Assembly (NCBI GenBank): GCA_905235625.1
Contig: CAJOLX010000007.1
Span: 1 to 45,059 of the forward strand
Source: an uncultured Clostridia bacterium
Lineage (GTDB): Bacteria; Bacillota; Clostridia; Oscillospirales; Acutalibacteraceae
Reading direction: 5' to 3'
Length of the DNA: 45,059 nucleotides
Shown: one piece after another, positions 22,241-43,873 of the stretch
How the letters are laid out: each line of letters opens with the position of its first letter
Position numbering within the stretch: position 1 is the stretch's first letter
The notes under the pieces: generated by a model
The model's input: only the letters and a program-made list of their open reading frames with translations
The model's database searches: none
Told to the model about the DNA's origin: nothing
Made by a program: the position numbers and the translations under genes

Positions 22241-22765
22241 TCAGACCTTGCGGATATATCCTTCTTTTCTCGGAGCCGCTTCTTTTTTGCCCTCGGGAAT
22301 GCCGTAGCCTAAAATAACGTTGCCCGCGCCGACGTAATTGTCGGGAATGCCCCATTCCTTTTTAAGCTGCCTGCCTTCTTCGGATTCAAAGGATTCCTTT
22401 GCTCTCCAGATGTAGCAGGAGTCAAGACCGACGGCGTTGGCGGCGTTAAGCAGATTGCCGAGAACGAGGTTCGCGTCCGAAACGCCGAGAGGGCTTTCCG
22501 AATCGGCAAAGACGACAACCACCGTAGGCGCGCCGTGGAAGGTGTGCGCGTCCGGATTGCCCGTAACGGCTGCGTTGAGCTTTTCAACTTTTGCGAGAAC
22601 GTCGGCGGACTGAACGGCGACTATGAGAGGGCTCTGCTTGTTCATGCCCGTCGGAGCGTAAGTGCCTGCTTTGAGCACGGCGTCAAGCTCTTCGTCTTTT
22701 ATCTGCTCATTTTTATATGCGCGGCAGGATCTTCTTGATAAAAGATTATTTAATGCTTCACTCAT
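22241..22765 (-). CDS. Nitroreductase-family FMN oxidoreductase
   Basis: 174 residues. The N-terminal RRSCRAYKNEQI and TYAPTGMNKQS provide FMN phosphate and ribityl contacts, and GAGNVILGYGIPEGK near the end is the standard final block. Such proteins are flavin-dependent dimers that reduce nitro compounds, quinones or flavins using NAD(P)H. Short form, as in many anaerobes. Own promoter at 22813-22841 and an SD of GGGG about 10 bases before the ATG. Confidence 0.9.
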   Translation of the reverse strand: MSEALNNLLSRRSCRAYKNEQIKDEELDAVLKAGTYAPTGMNKQSPLIVAVQSADVLAKVEKLNAAVTGNPDAHTFHGAPTVVVVFADSESPLGVSDANLVLGNLLNAANAVGLDSCYIWRAKESFESEEGRQLKKEWGIPDNYVGAGNVILGYGIPEGKKEAAPRKEGYIRKV

Positions 22766-22812
22766 TTTAATAAATCCCCTTTCGGTTTTTTGCGGCGATT
22801 GCCTTATTAGTA

Positions 22813-22841
22813 ATTATATACCCAAGATTTGCTAAAATCAA
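22813..22841 (-). promoter_or_regulatory. Sigma-A promoter of the nitroreductase gene
   Basis: On the minus strand TTGATT (22836-22841), a 17-base spacer and TATAAT (22813-22818), 47 bases before the ATG. Confidence 0.75.
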
Positions 22842-22854
22842 TATTACAGCGAAG

Positions 22855-22890
22855 AAAATACCCAGCGGAAAAATCACGCAGGGTATTTTT
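22855..22890 (-). terminator. Terminator after the beta-propeller gene
   Basis: On the minus strand AAAATACCC (22881-22889) pairs with GGGTATTTT (22855-22863) around a 17-base loop, and the T-rich end gives the tail. It separates the B12-riboswitch operon from the nitroreductase promoter. Confidence 0.65.
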
Positions 22891-22897
22891 GTAAATC

Positions 22898-24205
22898 TTA
22901 TCTTGAGAAAACGGAAAAAATTTTTTTGAAGAAATCGCCGATCGACTTAAAGAAATCTCTGATATAGTCAAAAAGCGTTTTTTCTTTGGGCTCTTCGTTT
23001 TCCGCCGATTTATGAGTGAGAGCAAAGACGGAGCCGGAGTCGTTTTTGTAATAAAGGTCTCCGTTTTCGTCGGCGCAAATCGAGCTTATGCAGTAGCTTC
23101 TTTTCCCCTCGGGCGGAACGTAAAGATTTTCGAGCGACATTTTATCGCCGGAATAAGTAACGGCAATTAAGCCTCCGGGACCCTTGTTATAGGTGGAATA
23201 AATAACGGGGTCGTCAAACGCAGACGAAATGAGCAGCTCGCGCTGAGGGAACCCGGGCGTTCTGATTACGCAGCCGGCGGTAAGAGTTTGAGCGTCAAAG
23301 GCGCCGATAAAGCCGTTGCCTGTGCTCTCATCGTACATTCCGATATAAACGCTGCCGTCATAAACGGTTGGAGTCGAGGTTGAATAACCGGCTAATTTGC
23401 AGGTTGTAACGTCGCCGAAAGAACCGTTGCCGTTAACTTTCGTTTTGTAAAGATAAGCGCCCTTTGTGACAATATAAACGGAGCCCGAGTCAACGGTAAT
23501 TCCGCTTCTCACGTCGCCGATAATATTGACTGTATCAATAACCGAGCCTGTTGAAATATCAACTGTTGAAACAAAGTTATCACCGTCAAAATCGGATGAG
23601 CCGTCGTCGCCCGAAATAATCAGATAATTGCCCTGCCTTGCGCATTCAGCCCAATAATAACCGCCCGCGCGGGTTATTGACCACAGGATTTCGCCGGTGG
23701 AAGCGTCAATGCTTACGAAATTCGCATCGTGAACGTCGGAATTCCAAAATCCGGTGAAAATCTTGCCGTCATAATAATAAATATCGGTCAGCGCCTGCCC
23801 TTCGAGAGGGTCGTGAGCGCTCCAAAGCTTATTGAGATTATCGGCGTCAAAGGCTTCTATAACTCCGTCGCCTATGGGGCAAAAAACCTTGCCCGCGGCA
23901 ACGGTTACGGGAACGTAGGCGTAAGTCGGCCTGCCGGACATATTGCCTTCGCAAACGATTTTGCCGGTTTCTTTGCTAACCTTCAATATCTTTTTGCCGC
24001 TCATAACGTAGAGATAATTTCCGCTTAAAACGGGTATGCTCGGCGCGTTTTTATAATCTGTGCCTAAATCGAGAATCCACTTTTCCTCCGTATCGGAAGC
24101 GGAAACGGGCGGCGCGGACGATACCGTCAAGGCATATGACGGAAAAGAAAACAGGCTCATTACAAGCAAAACGATCAAAGCGGAACAAGTTGTTTTTTTA
24201 AGCAT
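22898..24205 (-). CDS. Exported PQQ-like beta-propeller protein with amphipathic C-terminal tail
   Basis: 435 residues. A signal peptide (about 1-26, ending SFPSYA) directs export. Residues about 45-395 contain repeats of the PQQ/WD type: IPVLSGNYLYVMSGKKILKV, VTVAAGKVFCPIGDGVIEAF, FVSIDASTGEILWSI, SGSVYIVTKGAYLYK, PTVYDGSVYIGM and ICADENGDLYYKNDSGSVFA. That suggests a closed propeller of about 7-8 blades. I see no heme or catalytic PQQ-enzyme motif, so a binding role is likelier than catalysis. The last 27 residues (LFDYIRDFFKSIGDFFKKIF...) are a Phe/Lys amphipathic helix, possibly a membrane-surface anchor. It lies 35 bases after the DUF4430-like gene with the SD GGTGAAG, under the same cobalamin riboswitch. 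I infer a B12-binding or B12-uptake role. Confidence 0.78.
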   Translation of the reverse strand: MLKKTTCSALIVLLVMSLFSFPSYALTVSSAPPVSASDTEEKWILDLGTDYKNAPSIPVLSGNYLYVMSGKKILKVSKETGKIVCEGNMSGRPTYAYVPVTVAAGKVFCPIGDGVIEAFDADNLNKLWSAHDPLEGQALTDIYYYDGKIFTGFWNSDVHDANFVSIDASTGEILWSITRAGGYYWAECARQGNYLIISGDDGSSDFDGDNFVSTVDISTGSVIDTVNIIGDVRSGITVDSGSVYIVTKGAYLYKTKVNGNGSFGDVTTCKLAGYSTSTPTVYDGSVYIGMYDESTGNGFIGAFDAQTLTAGCVIRTPGFPQRELLISSAFDDPVIYSTYNKGPGGLIAVTYSGDKMSLENLYVPPEGKRSYCISSICADENGDLYYKNDSGSVFALTHKSAENEEPKEKTLFDYIRDFFKSIGDFFKKIFSVFSR

Positions 24206-24240
24206 GACTTCACCAATAATTAAAATTCAAAAAACGGCTG

Positions 24241-25308
24241 TTAAGCAATAACCGCAAAGGGAAGAAGATTAATTGAAAGGTTGAAAAGACGGTCTGCGTT
24301 ATTGCCCAGAAGGTCTGTGAAAACTATATTGATAACAAGTGTTAATCTGCCCTCGCTTGATGCGTCAAAGCTAATGTCGATATCTTTGAAGAAGAAGAAA
24401 AACGGGAAAACGAGATTTTCTTCAACAGGGTCGAGAACAGGATCATCAATCTCACTGTCGGCAAATTCATATTCAACGACCGCGTAGTTTCCGATAATGG
24501 GCACATCCTCGTCATAATCGTCTGTTATGGCGCCTTCGGTAACGATATAATAAGTGCCTTCCTCTTCAAATGCGAGCTCAATCTGACCGTCTTCAACAAC
24601 GCCGAGCTCGGTGAAGTTTTCAAAATCCTGAGTGTAAAGCACCTTAACTCCGTCTGCGTGAACAGTGTGCTGGGCAATCACATCTTCGGAATATGAGCCG
24701 TACCATGAAAGGCAAACAGCCGAAACTTCCGCAAAGCAGGGAACAGCCGATGAAACGCAGTAAACGTTGGCGTCAAACACGGTGTTATAGTCTGACCAGT
24801 AACTGTCTTGAAGGGTGTAGAACATCACCTTATCGCCGTCTGAAACGGGAGCTTCGTCAATGGAAAAACCGGTATAGGAACCGTAAAGTTCATTGTATAT
24901 GCCGTCGTTAGGCTGAGCATCATTAACGGTGTAGCTTATTGAGCCGGATACGCCGAAAATCTTTGAGGTGTAATGGCTCGAAAAGCCGATATAATCCTCC
25001 GTTGAGAAATCATCGCCGTAAAGGGATGCGTGCGCCGCTACGAGCACGTCAAAAACGGTGATATAGTCTATTTCGTTGCCGTTATGGTCTTCCCCGGCAA
25101 CCTCAAATCCGTAATCTTCGGCAATGCCGTCATAAACTTCTACGGTTAAAGGCGCGAATTTGAATTCGCCGTCATAGAAGCTTACCTGAGCCGTTATAGT
25201 CTCGGCAGCCGAGACTTCATCTGCGAATGCGCCGACGCACGCAAAAGACACCATCATCGCGAAAGCGGTGAGAACGGCAATAATTTTTTCGCTGAGTTTT
25301 GTGTTCAT
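24241..25308 (-). CDS. Exported DUF4430-like (transcobalamin-type domain) protein under a cobalamin riboswitch
   Basis: 355 residues. Signal peptide 1-29 (ending CVGAFA) then a Glu-rich linker. Residues about 36-170 resemble the DUF4430 fold found in the C-terminal domain of transcobalamin and intrinsic factor: a beta strand SFYDGEFKFAPLTVEV, a helix at ITVFDVLVAAHASLYGDD (like TVLDALKAA), YTVNDAQPND (like YYVNG) and APVSDGDKVMFYTLQDSYW (like LKDGDVIVWKYT). A second, Ig-like beta region spans about 195-275. The C-terminal part has an odd FPFFFFFKDIDISF run and no cell-wall sorting signal. The assignment is by pattern, without a search, but the riboswitch upstream independently points to B12. 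The SD AGGAGG is at 25315-25320. Confidence 0.68.
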   Translation of the reverse strand: MNTKLSEKIIAVLTAFAMMVSFACVGAFADEVSAAETITAQVSFYDGEFKFAPLTVEVYDGIAEDYGFEVAGEDHNGNEIDYITVFDVLVAAHASLYGDDFSTEDYIGFSSHYTSKIFGVSGSISYTVNDAQPNDGIYNELYGSYTGFSIDEAPVSDGDKVMFYTLQDSYWSDYNTVFDANVYCVSSAVPCFAEVSAVCLSWYGSYSEDVIAQHTVHADGVKVLYTQDFENFTELGVVEDGQIELAFEEEGTYYIVTEGAITDDYDEDVPIIGNYAVVEYEFADSEIDDPVLDPVEENLVFPFFFFFKDIDISFDASSEGRLTLVINIVFTDLLGNNADRLFNLSINLLPFAVIA

Positions 25309-25331
25309 TTTTTACCTCCTGAAAATAACAC

Positions 25332-25357
25332 GCGCGCCTTCCATAAGAAAGGCGCGC
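25332..25357 (-). terminator. Expression-platform hairpin of the cobalamin riboswitch
   Basis: On the minus strand GCGCGCCTTTC pairs with GGAAGGCGCGC around a TTAT loop: 11 pairs including one G-U. It is followed by GTGTTATTTTC and then the AGGAGG ribosome site. It reads as an intrinsic terminator placed between aptamer and start codon, so B12 binding would stop transcription; a translation-blocking role is also possible. Confidence 0.7.
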
Positions 25358-25541
25358 CGAATAAAGCCTAAGATAACAAAGCATCCTAAACCGGCAGCAC
25401 CCTTCATTCCCAAAGGCACCTTGTGGCGGCTGAGCGGCAGAGCCGACAGCCTTTAACTATTTAAATCCCGACAGGCATTCCGACTGTTACGGCAATGGAT
25501 GTTGCGACGGAATTGCACCGCGCTTTCCCTCTCGAAATCAA
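25358..25541 (-). promoter_or_regulatory. Cobalamin riboswitch aptamer (minor variant)
   Basis: Read on the minus strand, the leader contains the conserved core in order: GAGAGGGAAA (25524-25533), GGTGCAATTCCG (25508-25519), CCGTAACAGT (ending near 25481) and the B12-box-like AGTCGGAATGCCTGTC (25470-25485), then a long structured 3' part with GGCTG/CAGCC and GCC-rich hairpins. The family consensus is AGGGAA, GGTGxAAxTCC, CGCxACTGT and AGTCAGGAxACCTGCC, so two elements deviate slightly. Transcription would begin only about 10 bases before the core, so the outer P1/P2 stems must be short or missing. It controls the DUF4430-like and beta-propeller genes. Confidence 0.85.
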
Positions 25542-25545
25542 TTTC

Positions 25546-25574
25546 ATATTAACACTTTCGCAAAAAATTGTCAA
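25546..25574 (-). promoter_or_regulatory. Sigma-A promoter of the riboswitch operon
   Basis: On the minus strand TTGACA (25569-25574), a 17-base spacer and TAATAT (25546-25551). The -35 box is 9 bases after the stop codon of the upstream phosphatase gene and no terminator separates them. Confidence 0.78.
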
Positions 25575-25583
25575 GGATTAATC

Positions 25584-26402
25584 TCAGATCAGAATATAGT
25601 CTTTAAAACCCTCGATTTCTTCGTCCGTCAGCTTTAATCCGTCTTTAACAAAATTATCAAAGCAGCCGTAAACATTATCAATTTCATTAAAGAACGCCTC
25701 GTAATATTCGCGGTCAACGAGAAAGACTTTTTTGACCTTTTCCGCAAGAGGCTTGTCCCTTAAGAAAATGAGAGCGAGCCTTCCGTAAAACGACGATATG
25801 CTTTTATACCTAACGTTAGTGTAGAGATAATCGTCAATAATATCTTTTTCCTGAACGCCGAGAATGCGCAGCAGCACGGCGGCAGTAACACCCGTTCTGT
25901 CTTTACCGGCAGTGCAGTGAAAGATAACGGAGCCTTCGCGGTTATTGAATATTATTCTCAGGCATTGCGCCATTTGCGACACGGTATATTCGCTCGACGC
26001 CATAAGAGGATAAACACTCTTAAGGTCGGGCACGTAATTATAAAGTTCCTGCTTGTTTTTAGAGGTTTTAAGAGCCGTCAAAACGTCGGAGCCCATGCCC
26101 GAGGTAATCGCAAGAGTAGCTTCATTATAATAAGGATTTTCATAATAACGGGCGCCTTCGGGCAAAGTGTCCGGTTTATTTTCCTTTTCATGCATAGAGC
26201 GAAGGTCAATAACCGCTTTAAGATTATACTTCTCTTTAAGCAGCTTTAAATCGGACTTTTTTAGGTTATAAAGCGAACCGGAACGGATAACGGCTCCGGG
26301 CCTTATATGTTTGCCGTTTTCGGTTGTCAATGAGCTGAAATCCCTTGCGTTTTTTAATGATTTGAATTCTAAATTTTCCATTTTATCAGAATGCGGCTTC
26401 AT
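25584..26402 (-). CDS. Tyrosine/dual-specificity protein phosphatase (MptpB-like, Y_phosphatase3)
   Basis: 272 residues. The P-loop HCTAGKDRTG lies at 162-171 with catalytic Cys163 and Arg169; the Asp of KDRTG matches the lipid- and phosphotyrosine-active branch (CxxGKDR). The N-terminal NARDFSSL, RSGSLYNL and VIDLRSMHE are the usual flanking elements. No signal peptide, so cytosolic. It may act on phosphotyrosine proteins or phosphoinositide-like lipids. The ATG at 26402 has GGAAG upstream and overlaps the previous gene by 17 bases; an ATG at 26381 is an alternative without a good SD. Last gene of the operon with the hydrolase and FAD enzyme. Confidence 0.85.
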   Translation of the reverse strand: MKPHSDKMENLEFKSLKNARDFSSLTTENGKHIRPGAVIRSGSLYNLKKSDLKLLKEKYNLKAVIDLRSMHEKENKPDTLPEGARYYENPYYNEATLAITSGMGSDVLTALKTSKNKQELYNYVPDLKSVYPLMASSEYTVSQMAQCLRIIFNNREGSVIFHCTAGKDRTGVTAAVLLRILGVQEKDIIDDYLYTNVRYKSISSFYGRLALIFLRDKPLAEKVKKVFLVDREYYEAFFNEIDNVYGCFDNFVKDGLKLTDEEIEGFKDYILI

Positions 26403-27714: not shown

Positions 27715-29229
27715 TTAAAAAATGAAATCAATGATTCTTCTGAAAAATCTTAAAATCATGCGGTAAAAATCAAACAGCTTTTCAAAAAACGATTTTTCCG
27801 CGGCGGGAGTGCCTTCGTCGGGTGAAAGCGAACCGTCGGCATAATCATAAACAAGATATTGCGGATATTCAGCGAAGGTGTTTATATCCGCCTGACCGTC
27901 GTAATAGAGCAGAGCGCTCATAAAGTTTTCGAGAGAGGACGGGCTCTTCGCGTGCGTTAAATCTCTCACAAACCACGTTTGGTCGGGGAAAAGGCAGGTT
28001 GCCGCGTAAACGGTTTTATCGGCGTTAAGATATGCGGGGTCGCACTGAGAAACGAAATCATCGGCAAAAGCAGAGCCGTAATCGGCGCAAGTGCCTCCCA
28101 TTGACGAAAAAGCGGTGTCAACGACGGTGTCGGTCATGAGCTTCCATTTTTCGGTAAGGGGAACGGTAGCGTAGCCGTATCTTGAAACGACGTAAACGTT
28201 TGCAGTTTCGTTTTGAGCGAGCAAAGTTTCCGTTTTAAACGGCCTTATCATTTCGTTGTAATTATCAACCTTTTCGCGAAGGCCCGAATGGTCAAGGCCG
28301 TCGTCTTTATACAGCTCATTGAAAACGTAATCAATGGACGCGTCAACGTAATCGTCGGGTATCATAGCCCAGATGCTGAGCCAGCCGGCGAACATGGGAA
28401 GAAGAATTTCTTTTTTGAGCTCATCGCCGAGATTTTCCACTATGCCGTTAAGAATGGATGACAAATCGTCGGTAACGCCGGCGTCATTCATAACGTCAAG
28501 CAGCATACCTATAAGCTCGGCTCTTTCGTTTTCGCTGAGCATTCCTCTGAGATATTCGGTAACTGCGTCGGGGTCAATATAAAGTTCGCCGCTCATAAGC
28601 TCGCCCGTGTAGGTTTCGCCGTAAATAGCCGTGGTGTTATAGCAAACGCTCTTTATTCTGTCGCCGCCGTAAAGCTGAAGATAAGTTTCGGCAACTATTC
28701 CGCCGAAGCTGTGGCACTCTATAACGACCTGCTCGCTGCCGGACGCCCGAACGACATATTCTATGTAATCATTGAGCTGAGAGGCAAGCTCTATGGGGTC
28801 AAGCCTCCAGTCATATCTGAATTTGAGATAGGAAGATTTCGTTATGGACGACGCGGGAGGATAAGCGAAATATACTCCGCTGCCGTCGGACGGCTCGCCG
28901 TTTATGTCAAGATTTGCTTTGCTCAAAAGCTCCGCAGCGGGCCCGATTATAGCGTCGCCGAGCTTCCTGTAATTTCTTGTAACGAGGAATTTAAGAAGGT
29001 CGGGCAGGCACTGTTTAACGGTGTCAAGAATATCCGAGCCCTCAGGCGGCCAAAGCACTTCGCTGTCTCTGTCATTCTTATCGGCGATTATTTCCTGCGC
29101 CATAAAGCCGTGAATATAGATATAAGGGCACGTTTCTTCCTCGGCAAAAACGTTTATGCCGGCAAAGCACGAAAGAACTATCGCGAAAGCGATAAATACG
29201 GAAACACTTTTTCTTAATAACTTAGACAT
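27715..29229 (-). CDS. Exported alpha/beta hydrolase, LCAT/lipase-like, with amphipathic C-terminal tail
   Basis: 504 residues. Signal peptide 1-29 (ending INVFA). YIYIHGF at 36-42 is the oxyanion-hole HG. FRYDWRLDPIELASQLND at about 137-154 matches the YDWR region of LCAT-like lipases. The nucleophile elbow reads ECHSFGG with Ser174, so the first Gly of GxSxG is Cys. The remaining triad members cannot be placed with certainty, though DLTHAKSP contains a plausible late His. The last 30 residues (FFEKLFDFYRMILRFFRRII...) form a basic, Phe-rich amphipathic helix like that of the beta-propeller protein at 22898-24205. Probably an extracellular membrane-associated acyl hydrolase or acyltransferase. 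SD GGGGAG. Confidence 0.8.
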   Translation of the reverse strand: MSKLLRKSVSVFIAFAIVLSCFAGINVFAEEETCPYIYIHGFMAQEIIADKNDRDSEVLWPPEGSDILDTVKQCLPDLLKFLVTRNYRKLGDAIIGPAAELLSKANLDINGEPSDGSGVYFAYPPASSITKSSYLKFRYDWRLDPIELASQLNDYIEYVVRASGSEQVVIECHSFGGIVAETYLQLYGGDRIKSVCYNTTAIYGETYTGELMSGELYIDPDAVTEYLRGMLSENERAELIGMLLDVMNDAGVTDDLSSILNGIVENLGDELKKEILLPMFAGWLSIWAMIPDDYVDASIDYVFNELYKDDGLDHSGLREKVDNYNEMIRPFKTETLLAQNETANVYVVSRYGYATVPLTEKWKLMTDTVVDTAFSSMGGTCADYGSAFADDFVSQCDPAYLNADKTVYAATCLFPDQTWFVRDLTHAKSPSSLENFMSALLYYDGQADINTFAEYPQYLVYDYADGSLSPDEGTPAAEKSFFEKLFDFYRMILRFFRRIIDFIF

Positions 29230-30765: not shown

Positions 30766-30804
30766 CTATTTCAAACACAAAAGCAACCCGATTTGGAGGA
30801 AAAT

Positions 30805-31317
30805 ATGAAAAAGCTGACAAAACTTATATTGTCTGCGCTTTTCGCAGCCATAATCGCGGTAACCGCCATAACGATACACATTCCGCTGCCGAGCGGAAAC
30901 GGTTATCTTAACGTAAGCGATACTTTCAATATATTAGCCGGAATAGTTCTCGGCCCCGCTTACGGAGCTCTCGCCGCGGCAATCGGCGGCGGACTGAGCG
31001 ACATTCTGCTCGGCTTCGCGTTTTACGCTCCCGGCACTGCGATAATAAAAGCGCTCACTCCCGTTACAGCCTACTTTGTTTTTAAGGCGTTCAAATCACA
31101 TAAAATAACGGGCGGCGCTGTGGCGAGCGTGTTATCCGAAATTCACGTTCCCCTGCTCTATTTCGTTTATGAATATTTCATTTTGCAATACAAGCTTTCC
31201 GCCGCAGGCAACATACCGTTTAACTTTATTCAGGCGGGAGCAAGCGCTGTATTCTCGGCGCTGATTATATCCGCGCTTGTAAAATCAAAACTGCTTGACA
31301 AAATACAAAAGATATAA
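30805..31317 (+). CDS. ECF transporter S component, likely vitamin B6-type
   Basis: 170 residues with about 5-6 hydrophobic helices. Start ATG at 30805 with the SD GGAGGA; the TTG at 30793 is inside that SD. NVSDTFNILAGIVLGPAYGA and GGGLSDILLGF are typical of vitamin S components, which capture the vitamin and dock on the shared EcfAAT module (not in this window). The ligand is not readable. Divergence from a PdxR-like regulator makes a pyridoxine-related vitamer the leading guess (compare the predicted PdxU group); thiamin precursors are an alternative. Confidence 0.82.
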   Translation: MKKLTKLILSALFAAIIAVTAITIHIPLPSGNGYLNVSDTFNILAGIVLGPAYGALAAAIGGGLSDILLGFAFYAPGTAIIKALTPVTAYFVFKAFKSHKITGGAVASVLSEIHVPLLYFVYEYFILQYKLSAAGNIPFNFIQAGASAVFSALIISALVKSKLLDKIQKI

Positions 31318-40568: not shown

Positions 40569-42944
40569 TTATTCTATGCTTTCGGCAAATCTTACGGAAG
40601 CCATGGCGTCGGGGCAGTAAGCGTCGGCGTTCATTCTTGAAGCGAGCTCATCCGTCAGCACTGCTCCGCCGACGATGACCTTGATATCGGGCCTCTTCTC
40701 TTTAATGAGCTTCACCGTATCTTCCATAGCGGGCACGGTAGTGGTCATAAGAGCGCTGAGACCCACGAGCTTCGCGCCGTTTTCTTCGGCGGCTTTCAGC
40801 ACGTCCTCTTTGCTCACGTTTTTGCCGAGGTCTATAACGTTGTAACCGTAATTATCAAGCAGAAGGGCAACGATATTTTTGCCTATGTCGTGAATATCGC
40901 CGTGAACGGTGGCAAGAATAACGGTATATTTATTTTCGGCGCTTTCGGCGGAAGCTTTTGATTTAACGATTTCAAAGCAAGACTTCGCGGCGTCCGCGCT
41001 CATAAGAAGCTGGGGCAGATAGGCGGTCTTTTGCTCAAACCTTTGCCCGATAACGTCGAGCGCGGGGATAATATATTCATTAACAAGAGGCATCGCGCCG
41101 ATTTCATCAAAGTATTTTTCGCAAAGCGAGCATGCATAATCGGCTCTTCCGTCAACGATAGCGGTCTTAATGCTCTCTTTATCGGGCTGAGCGTTTTCGG
41201 CGGGTTTTGAAGAGAAATCAGCGCTCGACATACGCTCAATGTAGCCGAGGCAGCTTTTATCGAGCCCCGACAGCGCGAGAAATGAAGAATAAGCGTTCAT
41301 CATTTCGGCGTTCAAAGGGTTGATAATAGCGGCGGTTAATCCGCTTTGAAAAGCCATTGAGAGGAAATATGAGTTGATTATCTGCCTTGCGGGCAAGCCG
41401 AAAGAAACGTTTGAAACGCCGAGAATGACGTTGCATCCGGTGCGCTCTCTTATGAGCTTCACGCTGTCAAGAGTAACCTTTGCGGCGTTATCGTCTGCGC
41501 TGACGGTCATGCACAGCGGGTCAAAAATCAAATCCTTCTTTTTTATGCTGTATTCTGCGGCTCTTTTGATTATTCTTTCCGCAATGGCAAGCCTTTGCTC
41601 GGCAGTGTCGGGAATGCCGTTTTCGTCGAGAGTGAGCGCAACGATAAATCCGCCGTATTTTTTCGCAAGCGGAAACACGCTTTGCATGGAGCTCTCTTTG
41701 CCGTTAACGGAATTTATCATCGCCTTGCCGTTATAAATTCTCAGCGCCTTTTCCATGGCGGCGGTGTCGGCGGTATCTATCTGCAGCGGCAGAGCGCACA
41801 CTGCCTGAATTTTTTCGACAGCCTCGGGCAAAACGGCGCATTCGTCTATTTCGGCAAGGCCGCAGTTAACGTCGAGCACGTTCGCGCCGCACTTTCTCTG
41901 CTCAATGCCCTCTTTTACGAGATAATCAATGTCGTTGTCTTTAAGCGCCTGCTTAATGAGCTTTTTGCCCGTTGGGTTAATCCTTTCGCCCACTATAACG
42001 GGTTTTGAGCCGAAAGAAACGGCGTGAGTTGAGCATGAAACGACCGATATATTTTTGTTTTCCGGGTATTTCTGCTCTCTGCCCGAAATCAGCTTGTTTA
42101 TTTCGGCAATATATTCGGGAGTTGTGCCGCAGCATCCGCCGGCAATATTCACGCCGAAATCAAAGGATTCCGAAACCTCTTTCGCAAATTCCTCAGCGCC
42201 GATGCTGTAAACGGTTTTGCCGTCCTTTACCTCGGGCAGGCCTGCGTTGGGCTTAAAGATAACGGGCACGGAAGATACGGCGGCAATTTTCTTGATGGTG
42301 GGCATGAGTTTATCGGGGCCGTATGAGCAGTTAAGACCCACGGCGTCCGCGCCGAGGCCCTCGAGCATTGCGACCATCGCTTCGGGAGAAGCGCCGGTAA
42401 GAAGGCTGCCGTCTTCGTTATAAGCGTTGGTAACAAAAACGGGAAGGCTCGTGTTTTCTTTAACGGCAAGCAGAGCGGCTTTGGTTTCGTAGCAGTCGCT
42501 CATTGTTTCTATGCTGATAAGGTCCGCGCCGTATTTTTCGGCAAGCCTTGCCTGCTTCGCGAAAAGCTCAACGGTAAATTCAAATTCAAGCTCGCCGAGG
42601 GGCTTTAACAGCTTACCGGTAGGGCCCATATCGTAAGACACGAACTTCGGTTTGTCGGATGACGACTGCTCCGCCGCCGTTCTTACGTTTATTATCGCCT
42701 GCTTTATGATTTCTTCGAGCTCAAAATCCGAATAATGCAGGGAATTCGCTCCGAACGTGTTTGTGTTAACAACGTTGCTGCCCGCGTCAAAATACTCCTT
42801 GTGTATTTCGACCATTTCGTCGGAGTGCTCAACGCCCCATCTTTCGGGTGACTCTCCGCTTTTGAGCCCTCTTTTTTGAAGAAGGGTGCCGGTGCCGCCG
42901 TCAAGCAGTAAAATATTCGATTTTACATAGTCAAGAACGTTCAT
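40569..42944 (-). CDS. metH: Cobalamin-dependent methionine synthase, three-domain form without reactivation domain
   Basis: 791 residues from ATG at 42944. Domain 1 (about 1-290) is the homocysteine methyltransferase barrel with zinc ligands Cys206 (LNCSYG), Cys271 and Cys272 (GGCCGTTPEY). Domain 2 (about 310-565) is the pterin/methyltetrahydrofolate barrel (VIVGERINPTGKK, DVNCG). Domain 3 (about 590-791) has the helical cap and B12-binding fold with DIHDIG, His685 being the lower cobalt ligand. The SAM-dependent reactivation domain of about 330 residues is absent. Methylates homocysteine using methyl-THF from MetF, encoded 10 bases upstream. Confidence 0.95.
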   Translation of the reverse strand: MNVLDYVKSNILLLDGGTGTLLQKRGLKSGESPERWGVEHSDEMVEIHKEYFDAGSNVVNTNTFGANSLHYSDFELEEIIKQAIINVRTAAEQSSSDKPKFVSYDMGPTGKLLKPLGELEFEFTVELFAKQARLAEKYGADLISIETMSDCYETKAALLAVKENTSLPVFVTNAYNEDGSLLTGASPEAMVAMLEGLGADAVGLNCSYGPDKLMPTIKKIAAVSSVPVIFKPNAGLPEVKDGKTVYSIGAEEFAKEVSESFDFGVNIAGGCCGTTPEYIAEINKLISGREQKYPENKNISVVSCSTHAVSFGSKPVIVGERINPTGKKLIKQALKDNDIDYLVKEGIEQRKCGANVLDVNCGLAEIDECAVLPEAVEKIQAVCALPLQIDTADTAAMEKALRIYNGKAMINSVNGKESSMQSVFPLAKKYGGFIVALTLDENGIPDTAEQRLAIAERIIKRAAEYSIKKKDLIFDPLCMTVSADDNAAKVTLDSVKLIRERTGCNVILGVSNVSFGLPARQIINSYFLSMAFQSGLTAAIINPLNAEMMNAYSSFLALSGLDKSCLGYIERMSSADFSSKPAENAQPDKESIKTAIVDGRADYACSLCEKYFDEIGAMPLVNEYIIPALDVIGQRFEQKTAYLPQLLMSADAAKSCFEIVKSKASAESAENKYTVILATVHGDIHDIGKNIVALLLDNYGYNVIDLGKNVSKEDVLKAAEENGAKLVGLSALMTTTVPAMEDTVKLIKEKRPDIKVIVGGAVLTDELASRMNADAYCPDAMASVRFAESIE

Positions 42945-42954
42945 AGTCAAAACC

Positions 42955-43833
42955 TTATTCTTTGCCGAGAATGTCGGAAAGATTATTCATAATAGCCTGC
43001 GCAACGTGAGGATTATTCATTGAATAAACGTGAACGTGGGTAACGTTGTTGGCAAATAAATCAATTATCTGGTCGGTAGCGTAAGCGATGCCCGCCTGCA
43101 TCATAGCGGCGTCGTCATACCCGAATTTATCAACGAGGCTTATAAACCTCTGAGGCACGTAACAGCCCGAAAGGCTTATCGCCCTCTCGACCTGGCTCGC
43201 TTTGGTAATCGGCATAATTCCGGGGATAATCGGAACGGTAACGCCCGCTTCCCTTATCCTGTAAAGGAAATTGTAGTAAAGATTATTGTCAAAAAACATC
43301 TGAGATGTAAAAAACTCAAAGCCCGAGTCCGCTTTCTGCTTGAGATAATAAATATCGTCCTGCTTGGATTTGCTCTCGGGATGAACCTCGGGATAGCACG
43401 CTCCGCCCACGCAAAAATCATAGCCGCTGCTTCTTATGTCGCTCATAAGGTCCATAGAGTGCTTATAATCGCCTGTTCCTTCGCCTTCGGGAGCGTCTTT
43501 CGGAATATCTCCCCTTAACGCGAGCACGTTCTCAATGCCGGCAAGGTGGATTTTTTCAATCATATCCTTAACCGTTTCTTTTGAGGAAGAAACGCAGGTA
43601 AGGTGAGCTATTGACGGCACGGAATATTTGTCCTTAATGTTTTTTGCGATATCAAGGGTGTATTTGCTCGTGCCTCCGCCCGCGCCGTAAGTGACGCTCA
43701 TATAAGACGGCTTTAATGCGGCAATTTCGTTAACGGCGTGTTCAACCGATGCGAAAGCAGTGTTCGTTTTGGGCGGGAACACCTCAAATGACAAGGAGTA
43801 TTTTTTGCTTGAAACTATGTCGGTAATTTTCAC
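42955..43833 (-). CDS. metF: Methylenetetrahydrofolate reductase MetF
   Basis: About 292 residues. I choose GTG at 43833 because GGGGGAA lies 6-8 bases before it; an ATG at 43848 has no SD. LSFEVFPPKTN (catalytic Glu), SVTYGAGGGTS, ALRGDIPKDAPEG and FFTSQMFFDN are the MTHFR signatures on the flavin barrel. It reduces methylene-THF to methyl-THF for the methionine synthase encoded next. 40 bases after recG. Confidence 0.95.
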   Translation of the reverse strand: MKITDIVSSKKYSLSFEVFPPKTNTAFASVEHAVNEIAALKPSYMSVTYGAGGGTSKYTLDIAKNIKDKYSVPSIAHLTCVSSSKETVKDMIEKIHLAGIENVLALRGDIPKDAPEGEGTGDYKHSMDLMSDIRSSGYDFCVGGACYPEVHPESKSKQDDIYYLKQKADSGFEFFTSQMFFDNNLYYNFLYRIREAGVTVPIIPGIMPITKASQVERAISLSGCYVPQRFISLVDKFGYDDAAMMQAGIAYATDQIIDLFANNVTHVHVYSMNNPHVAQAIMNNLSDILGKE

Positions 43834-43873
43834 GATACATTCCCCCATCAAAATTTATTCAGTGAGAGAAAAG

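Follow-up and report, generated by a model that had tools for sequence, protein, structure and literature searches.

A cobalamin riboswitch-led gene pair of Clostridia encodes a DUF4430-like protein and a beta-propeller that may capture corrinoids for an ECF importer

Why should a cobalamin riboswitch stand in front of two genes for exported proteins? The question is raised by a 45,059 nt stretch of DNA from an uncultured Clostridia bacterium, a gut or rumen relative of Clostridium (the window; contig CAJOLX010000007.1, genome G000), to which all plain position numbers refer; other genomes, contigs and loci carry G-, C- and L-codes. On the minus strand, the segment 22898-25574 runs from the -35 element of a promoter-like site to the stop codon of gene B and includes an AdoCbl-II riboswitch, gene A and gene B. 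Both proteins start with a signal-peptide-like sequence, as judged by eye. A and B very probably have a role in corrinoid acquisition. More specifically, the sequences suggest that A-B is a B12-repressible operon whose products likely form an extracellular corrinoid-capture module feeding an importer of the energy-coupling factor (ECF) type, with A and B probably capturing the ligand jointly and handing it over to the ECF S-component.

The riboswitch and the genes behind it

The original prediction had placed a promoter, a cobalamin riboswitch and a terminator-like hairpin before the two genes, and all three were recovered as a promoter-like site, an RF01689 match above the Rfam cut-off and a hairpin (Table 1), which upholds B12-class riboswitch control of the pair. 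Eight promoter-like sites occur in 22700-25700 against 4.6 (standard deviation 2.3) in shuffled sequence, so that the scan alone is weak evidence for the promoter. The aptamer is the sole Rfam match at gathering threshold within the window and the only AdoCbl-II found in the G000 genome, where RF00174 had no match. A search of 120,462 bases of own-genome sequence with R1, an AdoCbl-II model trained on genus copies and accepted at E up to 5e-4, found no second switch. The RNA core is strongly conserved among 17 aligned genus copies, the window copy included, and a terminator-like hairpin lies downstream of the switch in 18 of 19 other genus sites (three of them, L015, L016 and L017, with a T-poor tail) compared to 7 of 380 mononucleotide-shuffled leaders. 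A and B are separated by 35 nt, within which the scan detected no terminator-like site. Cobalamin switches are off switches whose class II subgroups differ in ligand preference, according to the available portion of PMC11477304. Since the aptamer and the hairpin precede A, high intracellular cobalamin should lower A-B transcription.

The same arrangement recurs in the genus. A search with A covered 60 genomes, comprising 37 of the 45 genomes of the genus (G000 included) and 23 others, with G060-G067 outside the search. It gave eight matches, of which seven are real (G000, G001, G004, G005, G009, G014 and G036). The eighth, L009 in G023, was dropped, as its alignment is confined to residues 4-69 at the signal-peptide end (E 5e-4) and both switch and propeller are missing. 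An AdoCbl-II above the Rfam cut-off is located directly upstream in all seven genus loci with A, and B adjoins A in all six loci whose contig reaches that far, the contig of the seventh ending too early. In G014, G005 and G001, A-B is succeeded by an EcfT-like gene, which is itself followed by a gene for a DUF4430 lipoprotein in G014 (48.6 bits) and G005. The EcfT-like protein of G005, which has no Pfam match, was identified from visual inspection and from an alignment in which it shares 42% identity with the EcfT of G062. In G036, an A-B-DUF4430 unit (DUF4430, 58.5 bits) is divergent from a switch-led ECF operon.

Viewed from the switch, 22 AdoCbl-II matches were found in 20 of the 45 genus genomes, 17 of which have one above the cut-off. 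By reading, 18 of the 22 lead A, B, ECF, CbrT-like or toroid-DUF4430 genes: seven precede A-B (one of them cut), six a sister of A followed by a toroid-DUF4430 protein, three EcfT-EcfAA'-S, and two a lone CbrT-like S-component gene. Two sub-cut-off matches, in G064 (31.4 bits) and G060 (27.0 bits), were retained as related owing to the genes they lead. In the sister operons, EcfT-EcfAA'-S is complete in three cases and the others run into the contig end. Profile comparison relates the sister protein to A (hhalign, 99.1%), and the toroid protein of G026 matches PF14478 with 62.7 bits, while its squalene-cyclase (25.4 bits, cut-off 26.1) and prenyltransferase (18.7 bits, cut-off 26.5) matches both stay under the cut-off. 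Two further switches lead a small lipoprotein-like gene, similar to one after the ECF operon in G062 and G007, whose product we took for a candidate DUF4430-like protein. The last two matches were counted as unrelated, namely L049 (34.3 bits), which by eye stands in front of ribosomal genes, and L052 (26.4 bits), which leads a different S-component-like gene.

Beyond the genus, a B profile scan with one genome per species found 99 relatives, and 80 loci were kept. All are labelled as Clostridia, Bacillota or their families, except one labelled Bacteroides and one Coriobacteriaceae, and the relatives include the apparently cultured Hominisplanchenecus faecis, Proteiniclasticum ruminis and Blautia sp. 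An249. Marker genes, found with hidden Markov models (HMMs) built in this analysis and counted anywhere in the locus, on either strand, at E up to 1e-3, were DUF4430 in 63 loci, EcfT in 50, EcfS in 44 and an A-type or sister-type domain in 38. EcfT or EcfS is present in 54 of the 80 loci and at least one marker in 73. A cobalamin-type switch was counted when it shared the strand of B and lay between 4 kb upstream of its stop-to-stop frame and 200 nt within that frame. By this measure, 57 of the 80 loci have one, 27 by R1 (five of which, L059, L069, L075, L080 and L096, lie on contigs equal in length to R1 training contigs and match by construction) and 30 by RF00174, whose scan excluded L133. 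The RF00174 placements comprise 14 direct cmscan matches, 15 obtained by coordinate conversion with a GCCACTG box and one, L118, whose converted stretch has no such box but shares its contig with two other RF00174 matches that convert to boxed stretches. Coordinate conversion alone can mislead, and candidates in L098, L106, L124, L128 and L130 that failed cmscan were left out of the count; L119, L120 and L125 have an RF00174 match inside the locus yet outside the counting window. Rfam cobalamin-clan models at a permissive threshold matched at the R1 site in all nine loci checked outside the genus. Neither switch nor marker was found in five loci, L060 (cut), L124, L128, L131 and L138. The company of B12 riboswitches and of ECF CbrT genes that had been anticipated for the pair was thus encountered, the former in 7/7 genus A loci and 57/80 B-like loci, the latter as loci shared with B12-type ECF genes.

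Moreover, A and B domains occur in one reading frame, in both orders, in seven loci (L094, L101, L105, L108, L117, L118 and L137), and B is joined to a sister-of-A domain in five (L087, L088, L099, L111 and L112). These fusions argue that A and B are physical partners. Of five giant propeller proteins scanned, three have a DUF4430 match above the cut-off. The giant of Anaerovorax sp. IOR16 (L120:5841-10805) combines DUF4430 with SLH domains, its propeller being detected by the in-house HMM and not by Pfam at 1e-3. This giant and two others, L070:4575-11855 and L092:5952-10763, were seen to unite DUF4430, cadherin-like or Ig repeats and a propeller. Separately, R1 placed tandem AdoCbl-II-like sites about 400 nt apart before an A-propeller-ECF operon in L062:6330-6931 and L065:198-800, of which Rfam saw the first only.

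Table 1. Positions of the features of the A-B locus in the window
Feature	Position	Strand	Basis
Sigma-70-type promoter-like site TTGACA-17-TAATAT, TG before -10	25546..25574	-	10/12 consensus matches only
AdoCbl-II cobalamin riboswitch aptamer RF01689	25465..25538	-	42.1 bits, E 7.6e-07, gathering 36.5
Intrinsic terminator-like hairpin, presumed expression platform	25332..25357	-	11 pairs, 8 GC, T-rich tail
Ribosome binding site AGGAGGT of gene A	25314..25320	-	Read from sequence
Gene A, exported protein of 355 aa: DUF4430-like domain ~37-167, then Ig/CarboxypepD_reg-like domain ~174-281	24241..25308	-	Open reading frame, profiles, model
Gene B, exported PQQ/BamB-type beta-propeller of 435 aa, C-terminal amphipathic stretch	22898..24205	-	Open reading frame, PF13360
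Inverted repeat AAAATACCC...GGGTATTTT, possible terminator, directly past the B stop	22855..22889	-	By eye; loop too long for the pattern scan, not detected there

A transporter for the captured ligand

Two types of S-component accompany these loci or genomes in the genus, represented by the profiles A5 (operon type) and A10 (second type). A5 matches 6FNP_A (CbrT) at E 3.8e-16 and A10 does so at E 7.7e-06. 6FNP is ECF-CbrT, which the available part of PMC5997447 describes as a transporter of cobalamin and cobinamide in which binding is done by the S-component itself; the portions available of PMC6593275, PMC8123684 and PMC9306216 also name CbrT with its ECF partners. No operon-type S-component was found in the G000 genome. 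A lone A10-type, CbrT-like S-component is encoded on another contig (C44:6936-7448; A10 model, E 9.6e-87), in keeping with the earlier proposal of a transporter encoded elsewhere, and a search with PF02361 found one EcfT, on C41. Across the 45 genus genomes, strong A5 matches are present in 29 and strong A10 matches in 11, none having both and five neither (p 4e-07 for mutual exclusion, a figure that takes no account of shared ancestry). The two CbrT-like types replace each other across the genus. The A5 matches include a lower-scoring subgroup at about 180 bits, whose substrate may differ, and partial matches in G006 and G023 stand outside the 29. Cross-matches of A5 and A10 at one place (G020, G023) were assigned to the stronger family, and one A10 frame (G011) contains a stop. 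A10-type genes lie behind AdoCbl-II in G023 (above cut-off) and in G064 (below). An additional ECF S-component in the window (30793-31317, plus strand; PF07155, 67 bits) has no Rfam switch beside it.

BtuFCD likewise combines B12 uptake with an exported binder. Since no FecCD (BtuC-like) permease was found in the G000 genome, this route was rejected as unlikely, and A and B differ from its binder in having no Pfam binding-protein domain. G000 probably uses B12, given that a gene for MetH with B12-binding domains adjoins metF at 40569-43851 (minus strand), about 15 kb from the A-B operon, and that other B12-binding domains are present in the genome. The only Pfam DUF4430 match of G000 is a lipoprotein-like open reading frame of 389 aa near a contig end (L054:345-1514, minus strand, contig C52), and R1 found no switch on that contig.

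We propose that A and B would be made and exported when cobalamin is scarce and would stay near the membrane, here by the amphipathic tail of B and in relatives as lipoprotein or SLH-bearing versions. Together they would bind a corrinoid and present it to the CbrT-like S-component. In G000 this component, encoded alone on the other contig, would share a general module of EcfT and presumably EcfA; in relatives, a single operon contains the genes for EcfT, EcfAA' and S. MetH would be the enzyme supplied with the imported cobalamin. Like ECF-CbrT (CbrUVT), the loci described here offer S-components that match 6FNP, in the same operons or genomes, with EcfT and a fused EcfAA' adjoining. They differ from it in that a cobalamin switch precedes genes for additional proteins, namely A, B and those with DUF4430, no exported capture proteins being described for ECF-CbrT in the portions of the literature available. 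The addition of capture proteins to an ECF importer would be a surprise.

A broader proposal, to which we give an even chance, is that Clostridia possess an independent and widespread surface system for scavenging B12, in which a DUF4430-type domain and a PQQ-type propeller jointly clamp the corrinoid and hand it to a CbrT-like S-component. It would be the first case of an ECF importer served by extracellular proteins dedicated to capture, and would combine the domain of animal transcobalamin with a propeller that came to the role of BtuG by convergence. A literature search found no description of an A-B module with riboswitch or ECF genes, most subscription papers and bioRxiv preprints being outside its coverage. 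Bacteroidetes compete for B12 with very tight surface binders, and little is known of how Gram-positive bacteria of gut and rumen obtain the vitamin in the face of this competition. The occurrence of a putative capture module with a switch in dozens of Clostridia, some of them apparently cultured, makes B12 capture outside the membrane directly testable. A-type proteins offer bacterial relatives of the transcobalamin domain, and a capture role would assign a function to two protein families that have no functional name in Pfam or NCBIfam.

Resemblances of the two proteins

The relation of A to DUF4430 was assessed by profile-profile comparison with hhalign. Profile A8, built from 29 A copies, aligned with A9, built from 37 DUF4430 copies, at 94% (E 1.5e-07) over 75 columns. 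The controls A8-A5 (0.2%) and A9-A2 (0.1%) gave no real alignment; A8-A2 reached 70%, yet over 29 signal-peptide columns only. A structure model of A from 29 rows was good (mean pLDDT, the predicted local distance difference test score, of 84). A first model from seven rows had been poor (mean pLDDT 63), and its structural matches, being meaningless, were discarded. The first domain of the good model has strands at 37-45 and 54-59, a helix at 85-100 and further strands between 108 and 165, an order of elements that fits what we take to be the DUF4430 layout. The second (~174-281) is Ig-like, and CarboxypepD_reg was matched by 19 of the 29 A copies at E up to 0.1. In the PDB and among viral models, the fold matches of the good model were for the most part Ig-like or weak. 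Searches with A alone returned nothing from the PDB by sequence and nothing from a scan of close-relative contigs. Six polar residues, D87, H93, N129, D159, D168 and D173, are invariant in the 29 divergent copies; that H93 serves as a cobalt ligand is speculation. A reading frame in G004 (L012:15671-17095), cut by the contig end, holds two A-type domains.

DUF4430 has been placed in animal B12 binders, according to the available part of PMC4350170. Transcobalamin and intrinsic factor share this domain with the loci studied here, most closely in the second gene of the G026 sister operon, where toroid and DUF4430 follow the layout of the animal binders. A differs in having no alpha/alpha toroid match in the Pfam search and no Pfam DUF4430 match. 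BtuH of Bacteroidetes is a further analogue, being an additional B12 binder of the cell surface whose loci are linked to switches, in some cases with a propeller or PKD domains. By description it has PKD followed by BtuH, in contrast to the DUF4430-like and Ig-like order of A, and no BtuH was named among the PDB matches of profile A8.

B belongs to PF13360 (PQQ_2; 54 bits, cut-off 27.6), and the prediction of a PQQ-like propeller with an amphipathic tail therefore holds, a C-terminal amphipathic stretch being present. Its comparison to BtuG finds no support in the sequence: the B profile matches BamB and PQQ types, and among 40 PDB matches at E up to 10 no chain is named BtuG or surface layer protein. 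BtuG binds B12 very tightly. Like this Bacteroidetes surface propeller, B is a beta-propeller that is exported and whose gene is associated with cobalamin switches and an importer. Judged from the names of the PDB matches, B is not BtuG-like, and its partner importer is of the ECF type. Similar amphipathic, Phe-rich ends (e.g. FFRRIIDFIF) are found on several exported G000 proteins (window 22898-24205 and 27715-29229; L053:9141-10307; L154:6929-8128), perhaps as membrane-retention tails.

Corrinoid capture and its alternatives

Several results weigh against corrinoid capture by A and B. As S-components bind their ligand themselves, it is not obvious why a capture protein should be required. 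Neither Pfam nor NCBIfam yields a match for A up to E=1, Pfam DUF4430 included, and only three of the 29 A copies match PF14478 (best E 0.037). A shallower, earlier comparison of A with DUF4430 gave 52.7% over 31 columns. A fold search with the whole A model returned no transcobalamin or DUF4430 entry among the best 50 of 1233 PDB rows, which are mostly Ig- or cadherin-like. Because the profile match is opposed by the missing Pfam match, the weak shallow comparison and the missing fold match, A is best called DUF4430-like and not a member of the family. The label DUF4430-like of the original prediction thus keeps the backing of the profile-profile comparison, and draws none from Pfam or from the best 50 fold rows. 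The PDB matches named for the B profile are BamB, PQQ enzymes, other propellers and designed propellers. The region contains fewer terminator-like sites than its shuffles (two compared to a mean of 4.1), and since this count is not above shuffles, the hairpin takes its weight from conservation across the genus. Whole-leader folding is only modestly above shuffles (z -1.94; 6 of 200 shuffles at least as stable). Among the B-like loci, 23 of 80 have no switch within the window used, four of them with a B frame that starts less than 1.5 kb from the locus end, and eight of the nine R1 sites checked outside the genus score below the Rfam gathering threshold. No RF01689, RF00174 or R1 switch was found by the S-component gene of G000, whose list of ECF parts may be incomplete because PF02361 misses divergent EcfT such as that of G005.

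Part of this evidence would suit a different role in corrinoid uptake, which we consider unlikely: A and B might not bind the ligand and would instead form a scaffold or dock, in which a BamB-like propeller and an Ig-like arm hold the true binder, a DUF4430 lipoprotein or the ECF complex, at the surface. The nearest solved relatives of B by sequence are indeed BamB and PQQ propellers, large relatives have Ig-like or SLH domains, and separate, bona fide DUF4430 lipoprotein-like genes stand in the G036 and G014 operons and elsewhere in G000. However, no DUF4430 lipoprotein gene follows A-B in G000 or G009. Furthermore, A itself resembles DUF4430 and retains its six invariant polar residues, His93 among them, across divergent copies.

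Another alternative concerns the ligand. That it is not B12 itself but a precursor or fragment (cobinamide, other cobamides, alpha-ribazole, dimethylbenzimidazole) or cobalt appears rather improbable. The riboswitch class reports the cobalamin pathway only, and the literature names transporters both of cobalt and of lower-ligand bases, with cblTS for dimethylbenzimidazole and cbrUVT for cobyrinate diamide in the available part of PMC8123684. The S-components nevertheless match CbrT, a transporter of cobalamin and cobinamide, and cobinamide would still fit the capture of corrinoids for an ECF importer.

It is very improbable that A and B do something else that is merely shut off by B12, for instance in the cell wall, in adhesion or as a B12-independent substitute: their role is deduced from context, both proteins are without a known ligand, and Ig-like and propeller folds serve many purposes, but the loci recur with CbrT-like ECF genes and DUF4430, under two kinds of switch (AdoCbl-II-like and RF00174) and with A-B fusions.

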